Shown in pieces: positions 7,106 to 15,595 of a stretch of DNA of 64,000 bases (its first letter is position 1; each line of letters opens with the position of its first letter). The stretch comes from Yersinia entomophaga (GTDB lineage: Bacteria; Pseudomonadota; Gammaproteobacteria; Enterobacterales; Enterobacteriaceae). The notes under the pieces are model-generated. The model made no database searches and was not told the DNA's origin. It saw nothing but the letters and a program-made list of their open reading frames with translations. The DNA lies in contig NZ_CP010029.1 of NCBI RefSeq assembly GCF_001656035.1, positions 1,268,885-1,332,884 of the forward strand. Direction: 5' to 3'. A program made the translations under genes and the position numbers.

Positions 7106-7465
7106 TTATAGCTGACGAAATCTGCTGCGAACACCAAAAGTTTCCGAAGTAACGTAACGCTCTACTTGCCGCAAACGTTGCTCTCCGCTGCTTAATTCGT
7201 AATCCAGTTTATCCAGCAGTTGGCGAGGAGTTTGATAGTCCTCATCCATAAGAGTGCTGGCCGGTACTGGGTCCAACATATAAGTCAGCACCAGGTAGGC
7301 TACGATGGTGAAAACAAACAGGCCGAAAAACATCGATAACACGGCAATAATACGTACCAGTTTGACCGGAATATCCAGATAATGCGCTAAACCGGCGCAC
7401 ACCCCTTTCACCATGCCTTCTTCCGGCACGCGGTACAGTTTTTTTCCACTAAACAAACCGGTCAT
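7106..7465 (-). CDS. pspC: Phage shock protein PspC
   Basis: Inner-membrane sensor that, with PspB, relieves PspA inhibition of PspF when the membrane is stressed (secretin mislocalisation, proton-motive-force loss). It has 119 residues: a PspC domain (KKLYRVPEEGMVKGVCAGLAHY, residues about 8-30), one strong transmembrane helix (IIAVLSMFFGLFVFTIVAYLVL, about 39-60), and a charged C-terminal tail with a leucine-zipper-like part. Its ATG overlaps the pspB stop, so the pair is probably translationally coupled. Confidence 0.96.
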   Translation of the reverse strand: MTGLFSGKKLYRVPEEGMVKGVCAGLAHYLDIPVKLVRIIAVLSMFFGLFVFTIVAYLVLTYMLDPVPASTLMDEDYQTPRQLLDKLDYELSSGEQRLRQVERYVTSETFGVRSRFRQL

Positions 7466-7692
7466 TATGATTGCCTCCAGTTCGGATGTTCTGCATCCAG
7501 AATTTCTTCCAGCGCCTGAATACGTTCGCGCATACGGCGCGCATCATCAGCTAACTGCGCTAAACGCTGCATTTCCTGATGGCTAAGCTGGGTGCCGCTT
7601 TGTTGGCGATTGCTGTAATGTAGCCAGAGCCAGATCGGTGCGACAAACAGCACAAAAATGGTTAGCGGAATAGCTAAAAACAGAATACTCAT
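7465..7692 (-). CDS. pspB: Phage shock protein PspB
   Basis: 75-residue inner-membrane protein acting with PspC in stress sensing. One N-terminal transmembrane helix (about residues 3-25) is followed by a cytoplasmic helix (LAQLADDARRMRERIQALEEIL) predicted to form a coiled coil. Length equals the family norm (74 in E. coli). It overlaps pspC by 1 nt. Confidence 0.96.
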   Translation of the reverse strand: MSILFLAIPLTIFVLFVAPIWLWLHYSNRQQSGTQLSHQEMQRLAQLADDARRMRERIQALEEILDAEHPNWRQS

Positions 7693-7805
7693 TCTTTCCC
7701 CTTATTTATTCTTATCAACGGCAATGCAATCATCATAGCCGCAAGATTCGAGTAATAATATGGCCGCAACCTTTTGGGATAACGGCCCACTTTTATTACT
7801 CTTTA

Positions 7806-8692: not shown

Positions 8693-9715
8693 ATGAGCGA
8701 ACAACTTGAAAACCTGCTAGGTGAAGCAAATTCCTTTGTTGAGGTGCTTGAGCAAGTCTCGGGATTGGCCAAATTGAATAAACCCGTACTGGTGATTGGC
8801 GAACGCGGAACGGGTAAGGAATTGATTGCTCACCGTTTGCATTATCTGTCGAATCGTTGGCAGGGGCCGTTTATCTCGCTGAACTGTGCGGCGCTGAATG
8901 AAAATCTGCTGGATTCCGAGCTGTTTGGTCATGAAGCCGGTGCCTTTACCGGCGCGCAAAAGCGCCATTTAGGTCGATTTGAACGCGCCGATGGGGGAAC
9001 GCTGTTTCTCGATGAACTCGCTACCGCCCCAATGCTGGTACAGGAAAAACTGCTGCGAGTCATTGAATATGGCCATTTGGAGAGAGTCGGCGGTAGCCAG
9101 CCGTTACAGGTTGACGTGCGTTTAGTTTGCGCCACCAATGATAATTTACCCGCTCTGGCCGCCGCAGGAAAGTTTCGGGCGGATTTACTGGATCGTCTGG
9201 CTTTCGACGTGGTGCAACTGCCGCCGCTACGCCAGAGACAGCAAGATATCATGCTGCTGGCGGAGCATTTCGCTATCCAAATGTGCCGCGAACTTGGGCT
9301 GCAATTATTCCCCGGTTTTACTCTACAGGCCAAAAGCCAGCTGCTGGGTTATCATTGGCCGGGAAACGTGCGAGAGCTGAAAAATGTGGTGGAGCGCTCG
9401 GTTTATCGCCACGGCGATAGCCCGGATCTGCTAGACACTATAATTATCAACCCGTTTGCTGCCCATCAGAATACCCAACCCCACCTTCCAACGGAAACGG
9501 CTTCCCTGCCCGCGCTCCCCGTTGACCTCAAAGCCTGGCTACAAAACGGCGAGAAACAGTTAATTATGCAAGCGCTGGAGCAGGCGCGTTTCAATCAGAG
9601 GAAGGCGGCGGATTTATTAGGGCTGACCTATCATCAGTTACGGGGAATGCTGAAAAAACACTCGATATTGCAAGCCGCCACAGATGAGAATAACGAAGAA
9701 TCGGCGAATGACTAG
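8693..9715 (+). CDS. pspF: psp operon activator PspF
   Basis: Sigma-54-dependent AAA+ enhancer-binding protein that activates pspA and is held off by PspA. The 340-residue protein lacks a receiver domain, as usual. Walker A GERGTGKE is at residues 36-43, GAFTGA at 83-88 (contacts sigma-54), Walker B GGTLFLDELA follows, and a Fis-type helix-turn-helix ends the protein (NQRKAADLLGLTYHQLRGML). The C-terminal extension (about 15 acidic residues) is longer than in E. coli. Divergent from pspA. Confidence 0.97.
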   Translation: MSEQLENLLGEANSFVEVLEQVSGLAKLNKPVLVIGERGTGKELIAHRLHYLSNRWQGPFISLNCAALNENLLDSELFGHEAGAFTGAQKRHLGRFERADGGTLFLDELATAPMLVQEKLLRVIEYGHLERVGGSQPLQVDVRLVCATNDNLPALAAAGKFRADLLDRLAFDVVQLPPLRQRQQDIMLLAEHFAIQMCRELGLQLFPGFTLQAKSQLLGYHWPGNVRELKNVVERSVYRHGDSPDLLDTIIINPFAAHQNTQPHLPTETASLPALPVDLKAWLQNGEKQLIMQALEQARFNQRKAADLLGLTYHQLRGMLKKHSILQAATDENNEESAND

Positions 9716-9843: not shown

Positions 9844-9954
9844 GTAAAAAAAAAAGCCAGCACCCGAGCTGGCTTAAAAAACACTGGAAGCAATGTGAGC
9901 AATGTCGTGCCTTTCTATCAGAAGCTCCCTACTGGCGGCCTCTTCCTGAAGTGC
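9844..9954 (-). ncRNA. ryhB: RyhB-type iron-starvation small RNA
   Basis: Reading the minus strand from about 9954: a 5' part GCACTTCAGGAAGA similar to the E. coli RyhB start, then the diagnostic core GCACGACATTGCTCACATTG continuing CTTCCAGT (9883-9910), then a terminator stem AAGCCAGC / GCTGGCTT (9854-9861 and 9868-9875) and a run of ten T. Core and terminator match E. coli RyhB essentially base for base; the middle differs. RyhB is an Hfq-dependent RNA that represses iron-using proteins such as SodB when Fur is inactive. A -10 TATCAT (9961-9966, minus strand) and -35 TTTACA (9985-9990) lie within and next to a Fur box. It sits between pspF and the ureohydrolase gene. Some relatives have two RyhB copies; this may be either. 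Confidence 0.93.
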
Positions 9955-10145: not shown

Positions 10146-11174
10146 TTATCGATCGTTATTCTGCCTAAGCGTAGCCAGACACAGTAACGTGAATAGAATC
10201 TGCGCCCCAAGATTCGCCGTATTACTGGTAGGATCATACTGCGGCGCGACCTCAACGATATCTCCACCAACCATGTTGACGCCGGCCAACCCTCTTAACA
10301 TGCCAAATAATTCTCGCGGCAGTAACCCATTGACCTCCGGCGTTCCGGTGCCCGGAGCAAAACTGGGATCGAGAGAATCAATATCTACGCTAATATAAAC
10401 CGGCCCAGTCCCTACAACGGTTTTCACTTGCTCAACGATAGAGTGAACGCCACGCTCAAAAACGGCTTCCGCATGGATCACTGTCATGCCTGAATCGCGA
10501 GAGAACTCCCAAAAATACTCATCCGGGCCACGAATTCCAACTTGCACCGTGCGGCAAGGATCTATCACACCGTCTAATACCGCCTGACGAAACAGCGAAC
10601 CGTGATGCTGATTGCCGTAAAAAAGACCGGCGGTATCACAATGAGCGTCAAAATGAATCACACCAACCGGCCGCTCTGCCCCCAAAGCCCGCAAAATTGG
10701 CAGCGTCATGGAATGATCGCCTCCCACTGACAGTGGCAAAATGCCTGACGCTTTCAGGCGAGATAGCGTATTTTGTATATCCAAATGGGCTTGCGTGAGG
10801 TCAAAACGGTTGCTAAACACCACGTCGCCCAGATCGGCGGCGCTAAGTAACCGAGCTGGCGCAAGATTCAGCACATGATCGTAAGGCCCGATACGTTCCG
10901 CAACGCGCAGCGCTTTAGGGCCAAAACGCGCACCAGCGCGATGCGTCACGCCGAGATCCATGGGAACGCCCAAAATTCCAACGTCGGTTCCCTGCCATTG
11001 ATCCGGCGAACGGAACGGTAAATCGAGAAAAGTGGAAATATGGTCAAACGCCCATGTAGCCTGCGCCTTAGCATCAGGGAAGAAGGTTTCTGCCACCTGA
11101 CGATAATTTTCATCATGAATGGTAAAAGCGTCTTTTCCCGCATACTTCGCCCGCAATTTATTGAGTGAGTTCAT
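10146..11174 (-). CDS. Ureohydrolase (agmatinase/guanidinobutyrase-like)
   Basis: Dinuclear-metal hydrolase of the arginase/agmatinase family that removes urea from a guanidino compound. The 342-residue protein has all metal-ligand motifs: GGDHS (His154), FDAHCD (Asp176, His178, Asp180) and DIDSLDP (Asp264, Asp266). The N-terminal extension and overall pattern resemble agmatinase, guanidinobutyrase and guanidinopropionase; the substrate cannot be told from these motifs. It follows the alpha-oxoamine synthase gene by only 2 nt, so the two are one operon and likely one pathway. No speA-type decarboxylase is adjacent. No terminator is evident after it before the ryhB promoter region. Confidence 0.9.
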   Translation of the reverse strand: MNSLNKLRAKYAGKDAFTIHDENYRQVAETFFPDAKAQATWAFDHISTFLDLPFRSPDQWQGTDVGILGVPMDLGVTHRAGARFGPKALRVAERIGPYDHVLNLAPARLLSAADLGDVVFSNRFDLTQAHLDIQNTLSRLKASGILPLSVGGDHSMTLPILRALGAERPVGVIHFDAHCDTAGLFYGNQHHGSLFRQAVLDGVIDPCRTVQVGIRGPDEYFWEFSRDSGMTVIHAEAVFERGVHSIVEQVKTVVGTGPVYISVDIDSLDPSFAPGTGTPEVNGLLPRELFGMLRGLAGVNMVGGDIVEVAPQYDPTSNTANLGAQILFTLLCLATLRQNNDR

Positions 11175-11176
11175 AT

Positions 11177-12451
11177 TTAACCGGCCTCCTGTTTCACAGC
11201 GTCCGAGCAGGAATAAAACTCGAAGCGATTTGCGGATTCTGCCAGCACTGCCAGTAAATGCTGTACCTGATCGGGATTATTGGCCGCGGTGAGCTGCACG
11301 CGGAAACCGACTTCTTTTTTGGGTACCAGCGGATATAGCGCCAGCGTGACATAAACTCCGCGCTCAAACAGATAACTGCCTAACGCCATAATTTGCCGTG
11401 GATCTTTCAGCGGTATTTCCATGATAGGTAATTCAGAATTATTCAATGTAAAAATATCAAGATCGGCTAACCCTTTGAGCAATTGTCGACACATTTGATG
11501 CAGATCGCGACGTAATTCCTCTCCTTTTTGGGCGTTAACCGCTAAACCACTCAGTGTTGTGGCCAGCGAAGCTACCGGGGATGGCCCCGAATACAGATAA
11601 GGCGACGCGGCAACTTTAATCATTTCCTTCAATACCGTCGGCAGCGCCATAAAAGCCAACAATGATGAATAGGATTTGGATAAACCCGCCACCAGCAGAA
11701 TATTGTCGTAGCTCAACCCACAGTGGCGAACGATACCGTTCCCTTTATACCCCCACGGCATTTCTCCATCGGGATTTTCACCTATCAAACCAAAACCGTG
11801 GGCGTCATCCACATAAAGGATGACGTTCCAGCGCCGGGCTATCTCGGCAAAACGCGCTAAATCCGGCAGATTGCCGGTCATGCTATTCACCCCGTCCATG
11901 CAAATTAAGCGCGGCGGCACGGGGCTACTAGCTAATAATCGTTCTAATTCATCGGCATCGTTATGTTTAAAGCGAATCAGCGTAGCACCTTGCCCCTGCG
12001 CCACTTTACAACCGTCGTAAATGGTTTTATGGGCCCGACTGTCCAGATAAATTGCGCCAGTACCGCTGAGGAAAGGAATCACTGAAAGATGGATATGAGT
12101 GATAGTCGGAAAGGCCAATATATCCGGCGCTTGGGTCAAGGCCGCTAACTCGCGCTCTATATCCCTATAAGGCGTGGGTGTACCAAGCATTCTCGACCAG
12201 CTCGGATGAGTACCCCATTGACGCACCAGAGGTAATATTGACGCCTGAACCTGCGGATTTAGATCCAAACCCAGATAGTTACAGGAGGCAAAATCAATCA
12301 GTTCACGTTCGCCAATCACTATCTTGCGTCCGTCAATACCCTCAATAACGGCATCAACCATAGGGTGAGCGGGAGGTGTAAGTGGAGAATGAGCGAAATG
12401 TGTGTCCAACCATTTCGCCATCCAGGATGGGACGGTTTGCTGATTCATCAT
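11177..12451 (-). CDS. PLP-dependent alpha-oxoamine synthase-like enzyme
   Basis: Fold-type I PLP enzyme of the alpha-oxoamine synthase group (BioF, Kbl, HemA, CqsA and the C-terminal domain of SxtA), which condense an acyl thioester with an amino acid and lose CO2. The 424-residue protein shows the PLP lysine in AGLSKSYSS (Lys259), the cofactor Asp/His in YVDDAHGFG (Asp216, His218) and RAHKTIYDG (His141). Blocks such as FASCNYLGLDL, THPSWSRMLG and CMDGVNSMTGNLPDL remind me of the SxtA-type group rather than BioF, but this is from memory. Tandem ATG codons (12451, 12448) follow AGGAAT. It is the first gene of an operon with the ureohydrolase. Both amino acid and acyl donor are unknown; arginine is an attractive guess given its partner. 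Confidence 0.85.
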   Translation of the reverse strand: MMNQQTVPSWMAKWLDTHFAHSPLTPPAHPMVDAVIEGIDGRKIVIGERELIDFASCNYLGLDLNPQVQASILPLVRQWGTHPSWSRMLGTPTPYRDIERELAALTQAPDILAFPTITHIHLSVIPFLSGTGAIYLDSRAHKTIYDGCKVAQGQGATLIRFKHNDADELERLLASSPVPPRLICMDGVNSMTGNLPDLARFAEIARRWNVILYVDDAHGFGLIGENPDGEMPWGYKGNGIVRHCGLSYDNILLVAGLSKSYSSLLAFMALPTVLKEMIKVAASPYLYSGPSPVASLATTLSGLAVNAQKGEELRRDLHQMCRQLLKGLADLDIFTLNNSELPIMEIPLKDPRQIMALGSYLFERGVYVTLALYPLVPKKEVGFRVQLTAANNPDQVQHLLAVLAESANRFEFYSCSDAVKQEAG

Positions 12452-12583: not shown

Positions 12584-12778
12584 CTAGAATGACACAATGA
12601 GTAATGGGGTTATAATTGCTGTTATTTCCCCCCAATCGGTATAAACACAAGAGCCGCGAACGATGGCACGATTTGCGATCGAGCTGTAGCCGCCTCTGGT
12701 CACTGCGGCCCCACGTCTAGAATGAATCACCATGCCATCCTGAATGTTAGAATGCGCACCGATCTGATCTGAGGTCAC
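12584..12778 (-). pseudogene. Remnant of a gamma-carbonic anhydrase-like protein
   Basis: A 64-codon open stretch whose first about 45 residues (IGAHSNIQDGMVIHSRR, then GGYSSIANRAIVRGSC) are a left-handed beta-helix fragment of the gamma-carbonic anhydrase / hexapeptide-repeat family. Intact relatives, as I recall them, have His at the positions that here read Asn and Arg (IAHRAIVHG). After about residue 46 the similarity stops. Both the N-terminal part and the rest of the protein are missing. It lies 15 bp downstream of folE2 in the same direction, so it was probably the second gene of the Zur-controlled transcript. Confidence 0.65.
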
Positions 12779-12793
12779 TGGCCGAAAGGATTT

Positions 12794-13723
12794 TTACGCC
12801 GCATGATTAATACCCTCGCTACTGATAACGGCGACGGCGTTGTGGGCATGCAGGCTTTCCTGATGCTCCACCCTAACTGAAAATGCCGAATAGCGGCATT
12901 GCTTACGCAGCATGGCGTACAAACGGCGCGCCGCGTCCTCGCAGAACATCAGATTTTGTCCATTAGCCAATGCAAACGCCTGCTCATCCTGACGTTTCAC
13001 TAAAGTTTGTACCGGTGTTCCCAGCGTATTTTCAATTTGGTTAATTAATTCCAGTACCGGAAAATTCATCTCAGTGGATTTAAGTGACACCGTCACTCTT
13101 GCCCAGCTGCGTTGACTGTGCGGCGTTGCTGGCATTCCCTGCGTTCCAAGCCAATCCAGCACCTGTTGCTGGGTCAGATTTTCCTGCTGTTCAAAATCCA
13201 GTTGAAACTGCTGCTGAGCAGACTGAATACTCAACGCTACCGAGCTGGGACAAGTGGAAGAATAAGGTACGGACAGAGATAGCCGGAGCCGGAGCTGAAG
13301 CTGTTGTTCGAGCTGGGCGTCAATCGTCAGTGGGTAGGCCTTCCAGCCTCTTTGCGGGGATAACATCGCCGGTCGCGAGATAAAAATATCGCTGGCAATA
13401 TGCAGGCTAGCGCTGGCGGCTAGATCGGGTTGAGAAGCTAAAAATGCGGCTAACGTGGTGTGAATGCGCTGGGGCGTTAATTCCCCTTGAGTCAATTCAT
13501 CTAATGCCAAGTATATACGGGACATATGAATTCCCTTGCTCTGCCCTTTAGCTTTGACACCAATCCCGGCATTCACTTTTGCAGATAGCGGCCTGCCAAC
13601 GATGTCTAACGGTAACGCAATGCCTTCCATGCCGACCCAATCCAGCTCCGTATTGCCAAAATCAATGTATGAAGATTGTACATCTGGTAACGCCGTTAGC
13701 GATTGATTCGCAGCTATTTTCAT
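12794..13723 (-). CDS. folE2: GTP cyclohydrolase IB (zinc-independent)
   Basis: First enzyme of folate synthesis, GTP to dihydroneopterin triphosphate; the IB type (COG1469) does not need zinc and commonly replaces FolE in zinc starvation. Start at ATG 13723 gives 309 residues with GAGGAC upstream; an upstream in-frame start would run into the operator. Family blocks seen: DWVGMEGIALPL, KGIHMSRIYLALDEL, GWKAYPL, YSSTCPSS, ATPHSQRS, GTPVQTLVKRQDEQAF, NGQNLMFCEDAARRLY. The usual STCPCS reads STCPSS here, so the second Cys of that motif is Ser while the first is kept. A Zur-type palindrome lies about 50 bp upstream. Divergent from sapA. Confidence 0.93.
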   Translation of the reverse strand: MKIAANQSLTALPDVQSSYIDFGNTELDWVGMEGIALPLDIVGRPLSAKVNAGIGVKAKGQSKGIHMSRIYLALDELTQGELTPQRIHTTLAAFLASQPDLAASASLHIASDIFISRPAMLSPQRGWKAYPLTIDAQLEQQLQLRLRLSLSVPYSSTCPSSVALSIQSAQQQFQLDFEQQENLTQQQVLDWLGTQGMPATPHSQRSWARVTVSLKSTEMNFPVLELINQIENTLGTPVQTLVKRQDEQAFALANGQNLMFCEDAARRLYAMLRKQCRYSAFSVRVEHQESLHAHNAVAVISSEGINHAA

Positions 13724-13768
13724 GTCGTCCTCTATGTGTGCTTTATTAATATCAAATAAAGGTAACAT

Positions 13769-13792
13769 GCAATTGTTATAGTATAACATATC
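13769..13792. promoter_or_regulatory. Zur operator upstream of folE2
   Basis: Perfect inverted repeat TGTTATA-G-TATAACA (13774-13788) with flanks that also fit the enterobacterial Zur consensus (two TGTTATA/TATAACA halves about one base). It is 51 bp upstream of the folE2 ATG and 155 bp from sapA. Zur with bound zinc would repress folE2. Confidence 0.9.
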
Positions 13793-13942
13793 GAAGTTGC
13801 GTTTTTTTGCTCTCTTTCGGCGCTTTTGCGCATAATTACAGCAATATCCCTGAGATCAGTGAGTTGTTTTGCTCAATGGATTGGGGGGATAACCAGTTTA
13901 CGGTACACTAAGTCTATTGCTTACTTACAGTTGAAGCGTTTT

Positions 13943-15595
13943 ATGCGTGGTTTACTCATTTGGCTGCTGTCGCTTGGCTGTCTAGCGACACCAGCGCTGG
14001 CACAAACTCAGCCAGCCCCCCAAGCGATTCAACCGCCGCCGGATATCCGCCAGCGGGGTTTCGTCTATTGCGTCAGTGGCGTGTTGAATACTTTCAACCC
14101 ACAGATGGCCAGCGGTGGCTTAACCATCGATACGTTAGCGGCACAGCTTTACGATCGCCTGCTAGACGTTGACCCTTATACCTATCGTTTGGTGCCGGAG
14201 CTTGCTGATAGCTGGCAAGTACTGGACAACGGTGCTACTTACCGTTTCCATTTGCGTAAAGATGTGCCTTTCCAAACCACCGAGTGGTTTAAGCCGACGC
14301 GCATGATGAACGCCGACGACGTTGTCTTTAGCTTCCAACGGGTATTTGACCAAAACCATCCGTACCACAACGTTAACGGCGGGGATTATCCCTACTTTGA
14401 TAGCCTGCAATTTGCCGACGCAGTACAGAGCGTGAAAAAACTGGATGATTACACGGTAGAATTCCGCCTAAAAGCGCCAGATGCCTCTTTCCTGTGGCAT
14501 TTAGCCACCCATTACGCGCCGGTGCTTTCCGCTGAATACGGCGATATGCTGGCTGCCAAAGGCAAAAAAGAGCAGATTGACCGCGAACCCTTAGGTACCG
14601 GACCATTTATGCTCAATGAGTATCGTTCTGGTCAATATATTCGGCTTTCTCGAAACAGTAATTATTGGAAGGGCTTGCCGCGTATGCCGCAGGTCATTAT
14701 CGATCTGGGCGCTGGTGGCACCGGTCGCTTGTCTAAATTACTGACCGGCGAATGTGACGTACTGGCCTATCCGGCGGCCAGTCAGTTGTCCATTTTGCGA
14801 GATGACCCGCGTTTACGCCTGACACTGCGACCGGGCATGAATATCGCCTATTTGGCATTTAATACCCGTAAACCGCCGTTGAACGATGAACGCGTTCGTC
14901 AGGCCGTCGCTTTGTCGATTAATAATCAACGGCTGATGCAGTCGATTTATTACGGCACCGCAGAAACCGCCGCATCGATTCTGCCGCGCGCCTCCTGGGC
15001 TTACGATAACCACGCGCAGGTAACCGAATACAATCCCGGCAAAGCCAGAGAAATACTGAAAGAGTTGGGGATCAAACAGTTACAGCTGAATCTGTGGGTG
15101 CCAACTGCTTCGCAGTCTTATAATCCCAGCCCGTTAAAAACCGCCGAACTGATACAGGCGGATTTGGCGCAGGTTGGCATTACTGTGAATATCGTGCCGG
15201 TGGAGGGACGTTTTCAGGAAGCGCGGTTGATGGAAATGAACCATGACCTCACGCTCACCGGGTGGTCAACGGACAGTAATGATCCCGACAGTTTCTTCCG
15301 CCCGTTATTAAGCTGCGCTGCAATACGCTCGCAAACCAACTATGCTCACTGGTGTGACCCAGCTTTCGATGAATTACTGCAAAAAGCTCTGCGATCGCAG
15401 CAGATATCGGAACGCATTGACTATTACCAACAGGCGCAGCGCATTTTGGAGCAACAGTTGCCACTGCTGCCTCTGGCTTCCTCCTTGCGGCTACAGGCGT
15501 ATCGTTACGACATCAAAGGTCTGGTGCTCAGTCCCTTTGGCAATGCGTCCTTTGCCGGGGTGTTCCGCGAAAGTGACGAGGGTAAAAAACCATGA
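13943..15595 (+). CDS. sapA: Peptide-binding protein SapA
   Basis: Periplasmic solute-binding protein (SBP family 5, DppA/OppA-like) of the SapABCDF importer linked to resistance to cationic peptides. Start at ATG 13943 gives 550 residues (547 in E. coli) and a classical signal peptide [23 protein letters not shown]5 features include RGFVYCVSG near the mature N-terminus, and [19 protein letters not shown]. The sapB ATG overlaps its stop by 4 nt, starting a tightly packed operon of five genes. Confidence 0.96.

Follow-up and report, generated by a model that had tools for sequence, protein, structure and literature searches.

An alpha-oxoamine synthase and ureohydrolase gene pair in Yersinia entomophaga as a candidate pathway to an amine-bearing small molecule

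The stretch of Yersinia entomophaga DNA analysed here (contig NZ_CP010029.1, positions 1,268,885 to 1,332,884; 64,000 nucleotides, hereafter the window) belongs to a genome assembled as a single 4.28 Mb contig, and carried two closely spaced genes encoding an alpha-oxoamine synthase (AOS) and a ureohydrolase. A previous sequence-only reading of the window had described the two as a two-gene operon with a 2 bp gap and a full set of catalytic residues in both products. Both open reading frames were found where that reading placed them, and the expected AOS residues and ureohydrolase metal-site motifs, given below, bore out the second claim as well. The features of the pair were as follows:

11177..12451, minus strand: gene for the AOS, a pyridoxal phosphate (PLP) enzyme of 424 amino acids
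11175..11176, minus strand: 2-bp spacer separating the AOS and ureohydrolase genes
10146..11174, minus strand: gene for the ureohydrolase, a protein of 342 amino acids with the arginase fold, of the guanidinopropionase/guanidinobutyrase/agmatinase branch
11185..11190, minus strand: AGGAGG ribosome-binding sequence of the ureohydrolase gene, read from the sequence and lying within the end of the AOS gene

Between the plus-strand genes pspF (8693-9715) and sapA (13826-15595), the minus strand carried folE2, followed by a decayed stretch and then by the AOS and ureohydrolase genes. Comparison of the window with a sister Yersinia genome (G016) gave ratios of nonsynonymous to synonymous substitution rates (dN/dS) of 0.09 for the AOS and 0.14 for the ureohydrolase, with stops in neither; folE2 reached 0.15, and pspA, sapA, sapD and sapF were at 0.04 or less. 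Since dN/dS was low and the frames were intact while the adjacent upstream remnant decays in both genomes, the AOS and ureohydrolase reading frames are genuine genes under selection and not chance open reading frames.

The AOS matched Aminotran_1_2 in Pfam (E 9.2e-25) and possessed, in the numbering of the 424-residue protein, H141, D215, H218, K259 and R384, the last of which aligned with arginine 366 of ThAOS. We take H141 to be the residue that stacks on PLP, K259 the lysine that binds it, and R366 of ThAOS the arginine that holds the substrate carboxylate. With a fold-type I PLP fold, a catalytic Lys, an Asp, a stacking His and a carboxylate-binding Arg, the protein belongs to the AOS superfamily, sharing fold and catalytic residues with the solved enzymes ThAOS, BioF, Kbl and serine palmitoyltransferase, although it was about 20-27% identical to these in Foldseek rows and its pocket loop and nearby motifs differed from those of BioF/Kbl-type rows. 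Residues specific to its family are W85, H121, K142 and E345. Scores against NCBIfam models fell far under the cut-offs for BioF (TIGR00858, 193.3 vs 426.45 bits), Kbl (TIGR01822, 122.8 vs 493 bits; PRK06939, 159.8 vs 460 bits), HemA (TIGR01821, 112.7 vs 338.55 bits), CqsA (PRK07179, NF005526; 107.8 vs 428 bits) and serine palmitoyltransferase (NF047599, 188.9 vs 500 bits; NF047600, 161.6 vs 640 bits; NF047603, 138.8 vs 670 bits), and these identities were rejected. In the tree the AOS fell in a separate, supported clade, apart from the BioF (L002) and Kbl (L003) of its own genome, and nested with actinobacterial synthases whose genes lie next to, or are fused with, those of membrane sensors. 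Membership of the BioF/Kbl clades had been named beforehand as grounds for abandoning the proposal, and the synthase lies outside them. Its closest named relative was from Yersinia nurmii (95%). On family resemblance, the AOS very probably makes an alpha-aminoketone.

The ureohydrolase matched the Arginase domain (PF00491; E 1.5e-80, 271.1 bits) and carried the dimetal-site motifs of the arginase superfamily (GGDHS, DAHCD and DIDSLD), with metal-binding positions invariant in an alignment of 17 rows. Within this superfamily it belonged to a branch comprising guanidinopropionase, guanidinobutyrase, proclavaminate amidinohydrolase and agmatinase. It was rejected as an arginase (TIGR01229, 90.8 vs 227.6 bits) and missed both agmatinase cut-offs, narrowly for the equivalog TIGR01230 (172.8 vs 174.3 bits) and more widely for the subfamily model PRK02190 (263.4 vs 302 bits); no model named guanidinopropionase or guanidinobutyrase was among its matches in the NCBIfam scan. 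The best sequence matches in the PDB were guanidinopropionase (3nip) and guanidinobutyrase (3nio), both of the same branch, but the substrate-loop residues differed from those of either. This loop (Y157 in GpuA, M161 in GbuA) presumably governs substrate choice. In 115 of 120 homologues the loop read (K/R)F(H/Q)HG(G/A) after an acidic residue, whereas the window's own entry (P0121) and the three other enteric ones (P0122, P0123 and P0124) had FYGxQ-HHGS, with HQGS in one of the four, and a single further entry (P0125) had an intermediate loop, FEGRWHHGS. The enteric loop was closest by eye to the FYGGRYHHG of proclavaminate amidinohydrolase (1gq6), also of this branch, with FYG..HHG in common. 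These four enteric ureohydrolases formed one clade (support 100/99); relatives listed outside it were about 54-60% identical, those with names being mainly alphaproteobacterial.

The pair is a rare accessory operon. In all counts that follow the window's own genome is included. Of 25 Yersinia genomes, two had the AOS (E 1e-100) and two the ureohydrolase (E 1e-5; the window's genome and G016), and at E 1e-80 the AOS occurred in 1 of 394 genomes sampled from the order, 2 of 392 from the family (the same two as in the Yersinia sample) and 1 of 369 from the class. Non-conservation of the pair elsewhere would also have told against the proposal, yet both genes were present in all five enteric-type lineages seen: the window, G016, Pectobacterium polaris and two metagenome contigs. 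Adjacency was observed directly in the window and in the G016 locus (L091); for P. polaris and the metagenome contigs it was deduced from AOS and ureohydrolase entries on contigs of equal size (65635 for P. polaris, 15440 and 4426 for the others).

We also examined 80 loci fetched from other genomes' contigs, of at least 80 that exist. Of these, 33 were AOS-family loci, 32 by their position in the AOS clade of the tree and one (L035) added by identity, and 26 were of actinobacterial type (L005-L027, L032, L034 and L036). A GGDEF-EAL match was present in 24 of the 26 (all but L018 and L027), compared with 3 of the 47 BioF/Kbl-type loci, which were on average about as long (Fisher p 7e-14, for loci that are related and not independent). 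In 23 of the 26 (L005-L026 except L018, plus L032 and L034) the AOS gene was adjoined, within about 210 bp and on the same strand, by a gene for a polytopic membrane sensor. All 23 sensors had one membrane domain in common, and their output was GGDEF-EAL in 22 and a histidine kinase in L006. Sensor, GGDEF-EAL and AOS formed a single uninterrupted open frame in eight of the 23, all from Streptomyces (L012, L014, L017, L019, L021, L022, L023 and L025), which suggests a natural sensor-AOS fusion protein; the other 15 had sensor and AOS in separate frames. As for the remaining three loci, L027 had the membrane domain with a histidine kinase farther upstream, L036 an opposite-strand GGDEF-EAL protein without a match to the membrane domain, and L018 neither membrane domain nor GGDEF-EAL protein. 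The membrane domain was predicted to be a bundle of ten long helices; an alignment was made of 15 copies drawn from 14 loci, and Pfam scans of four of the proteins gave no match for it. Actinobacterial AOS and this undescribed polytopic domain together constitute a candidate synthase-sensor signalling family. Matches to a major facilitator superfamily transporter (8 of 26) and to a methyltransferase (9 of 26) were also found in actinobacterial-type loci. Deeper branches had an AMP-forming acyl ligase near the AOS (L028 and L031, with a partial match in L033), and a Nannocystis protein (L038, 7135-10173) combined such a ligase, a carrier protein domain and an AOS, which points to acyl donors bound to acyl carrier protein (ACP) or coenzyme A (CoA). 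In L029, a gene for a Cache histidine kinase followed the AOS.

The layout of the actinobacterial loci is similar to that of CqsA/CqsS and LqsA/LqsS, alpha-hydroxyketone quorum-sensing systems in which, according to excerpts of one paper, an AOS-type synthase is encoded beside a polytopic membrane kinase sensor (PMC3376566). They differ from these systems in that most of the sensors end in GGDEF-EAL and that eight of the 26 share one frame with the AOS. The window locus differs in having a ureohydrolase instead of an adjacent sensor, and no sensor was found among the neighbours scanned (pspF, folE2 and sapA). Another point of comparison is the synthase domain of SxtA, which uses arginine, the chemistry proposed below for the first step at the window pair; we know of no ureohydrolase partner of SxtA. 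Excerpts of a study of ThAOS list this domain as an AOS homologue (PMC11906848).

We postulate, with a probability of roughly 40%, that the two enzymes form a pathway to a small secondary metabolite, by way of a guanidino-bearing aminoketone from which urea is removed. The AOS would condense an acyl thioester, bound to CoA or ACP, with an L-amino acid under loss of CO2 to give an alpha-aminoketone, and the ureohydrolase would then cleave the guanidino group of this product to an amine and urea. L-arginine would be the simplest amino acid to make both steps meet, and would yield R-CO-CH(NH2)-(CH2)3-NH2, expected to close to a 2-alkyl-3-amino-tetrahydropyridine. As to the parts of this proposal, the two enzymes probably act in one pathway, while arginine as the amino acid substrate is a somewhat doubtful assignment. 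Since the AOS is nested with actinobacterial synthases whose linked sensors have c-di-GMP or histidine-kinase outputs, a signal or related chemical mediator is the likeliest role for the product, though a signal as such is somewhat less likely than not. A broader reading, in which the enteric pair branched off from an undescribed family of signals made by AOS enzymes, with the actinobacterial synthase adjoining or fused to a c-di-GMP or histidine-kinase sensor and a ureohydrolase recruited in enterics trimming the guanidino end of an arginine-derived aminoketone to give a new cyclic diamine-type mediator, is as a whole unlikely. Were it true, the range of signal-producing AOS enzymes would extend past CqsA/LqsA to ones with direct c-di-GMP outputs, and the partnership with a ureohydrolase would add a new route from arginine to an amine-bearing small molecule. 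The actinobacterial neighborhoods render the signal idea directly testable, and the predicted product of the window pair is in principle detectable by mass spectrometry.

Several observations weigh against the proposed pathway. A ureohydrolase match (E 1e-8) was found in none of the 80 fetched loci, including the 33 non-enteric AOS-family loci, so that removal of urea is not general to the AOS family. The route first suggested in the sequence-only reading, from an acyl thioester and arginine or a guanidino amino acid to an amino-ketone from which urea is lost, stands in part: the AOS lies outside the known clades and the pair recurs in enterics, but its relatives at other loci are without the ureohydrolase and, in actinobacteria, linked to a sensor instead. 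The Streptomyces fusion backs a functional link between synthase and sensor but does not fit a simple picture of separate synthase and receptor, and a search of the window's genome with the actinobacterial sensor region, run without a positive control, found no relative. ArgR-box-like sites in the window were no commoner than expected by chance. The P. polaris synthase entry (P0053) is missing about 90 N-terminal residues, and may be inactive or cut. Finally, excerpts of the ThAOS study state that engineered variants in which the corresponding selectivity position (V79) carries a small residue still do not use Arg, Orn or Lys, a small residue there being insufficient for their use in ThAOS (PMC11906848).

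Alternatively, the two genes might share an operon and no pathway, which is the main rival explanation: the AOS would make an aminoketone from a small amino acid, possibly in common with its relatives in actinobacteria, and the ureohydrolase would salvage agmatine, guanidinobutyrate or guanidinopropionate. This would suit an enzyme whose nearest solved relatives are guanidinopropionase and guanidinobutyrase, which scores just under the TIGR01230 agmatinase cut-off and which is the sole arginase-family gene found in the host genome, and it would suit the existence of AOS relatives without a ureohydrolase. However, the pair stays together in all five enteric-type lineages seen, the substrate loop departs from the common form in exactly the AOS-linked clade, and SpeA, AguA and AguB are encoded elsewhere in the host genome (as are BioF and Kbl), so that agmatine could be converted to putrescine without the ureohydrolase, AguA and AguB being already able to handle agmatine. 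We consider the separate roles rather unlikely. The order of the two steps could also be reversed, with the ureohydrolase acting on a guanidino precursor to free an amine-bearing amino acid such as ornithine, which the AOS would afterwards condense with an acyl thioester to the same diamino ketone; gene pair and end product would be unchanged, and the sequence of reactions is not set by that of the genes in an operon. This is improbable for an enzyme so far under the NCBIfam arginase cut-off, whose closest solved relatives take their names from other substrates than free arginine. As a side observation, the host genome has a second gene of agmatine deiminase type (PF04371; L098, 1495-2670), for which NCBIfam gave no match at E 1e-100.

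The last explanation to be weighed involves the region around the pair, where these features were located:

12794..13789, minus strand: folE2, type IB GTP cyclohydrolase, upstream of the AOS gene; true start probably near 13768
13770..13792, minus strand: Zur-box-like palindrome at the folE2 start, 19/23 to the consensus
12600..12793, minus strand: decayed gene remnant in the interval between folE2 and the AOS gene
9854..9875, minus strand: stem-loop and T run downstream of the pair, terminator-like by consensus match only

The pair and folE2 may both belong to a zinc-starvation (Zur) response, with a product that aids the cell under metal limitation, for example as a chelator. The Zur-box-like site before folE2 was strong: among 210 bins spanning 63 kb of the window it scored best, ahead of a runner-up at 16, and it also reached 19/23 in L091. 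Among the 25 Yersinia genomes, folE2 (E 1e-60) was found in the two with the AOS and in no other, on one strand with the pair; and a minus-strand sigma-70 scan of the interval from folE2 to the AOS gene turned up nothing that matched at 9 or more of 12 positions. Against this, about 340 bp including the decayed gene separate folE2 from the AOS gene, the best Zur-box-like site before the AOS gene scored only 13/23, and a promoter-like sequence (TTGCTG-17-TATAGT; found by eye and, at 8/12, under the scan threshold) lies directly upstream of the AOS gene and is kept in both genomes, and the AOS gene may thus have its own promoter. Nor would one readily expect a diamino ketone to act as a chelator, and we regard a shared role in zinc starvation as very unlikely. 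Between 9700 and 14000 there were three terminator-like sites, vs 4.6 expected in shuffles. The decayed remnant, of which L091 has a longer, stop-ridden version (7177-7800), resembles a gamma-carbonic-anhydrase-type protein by eye only.
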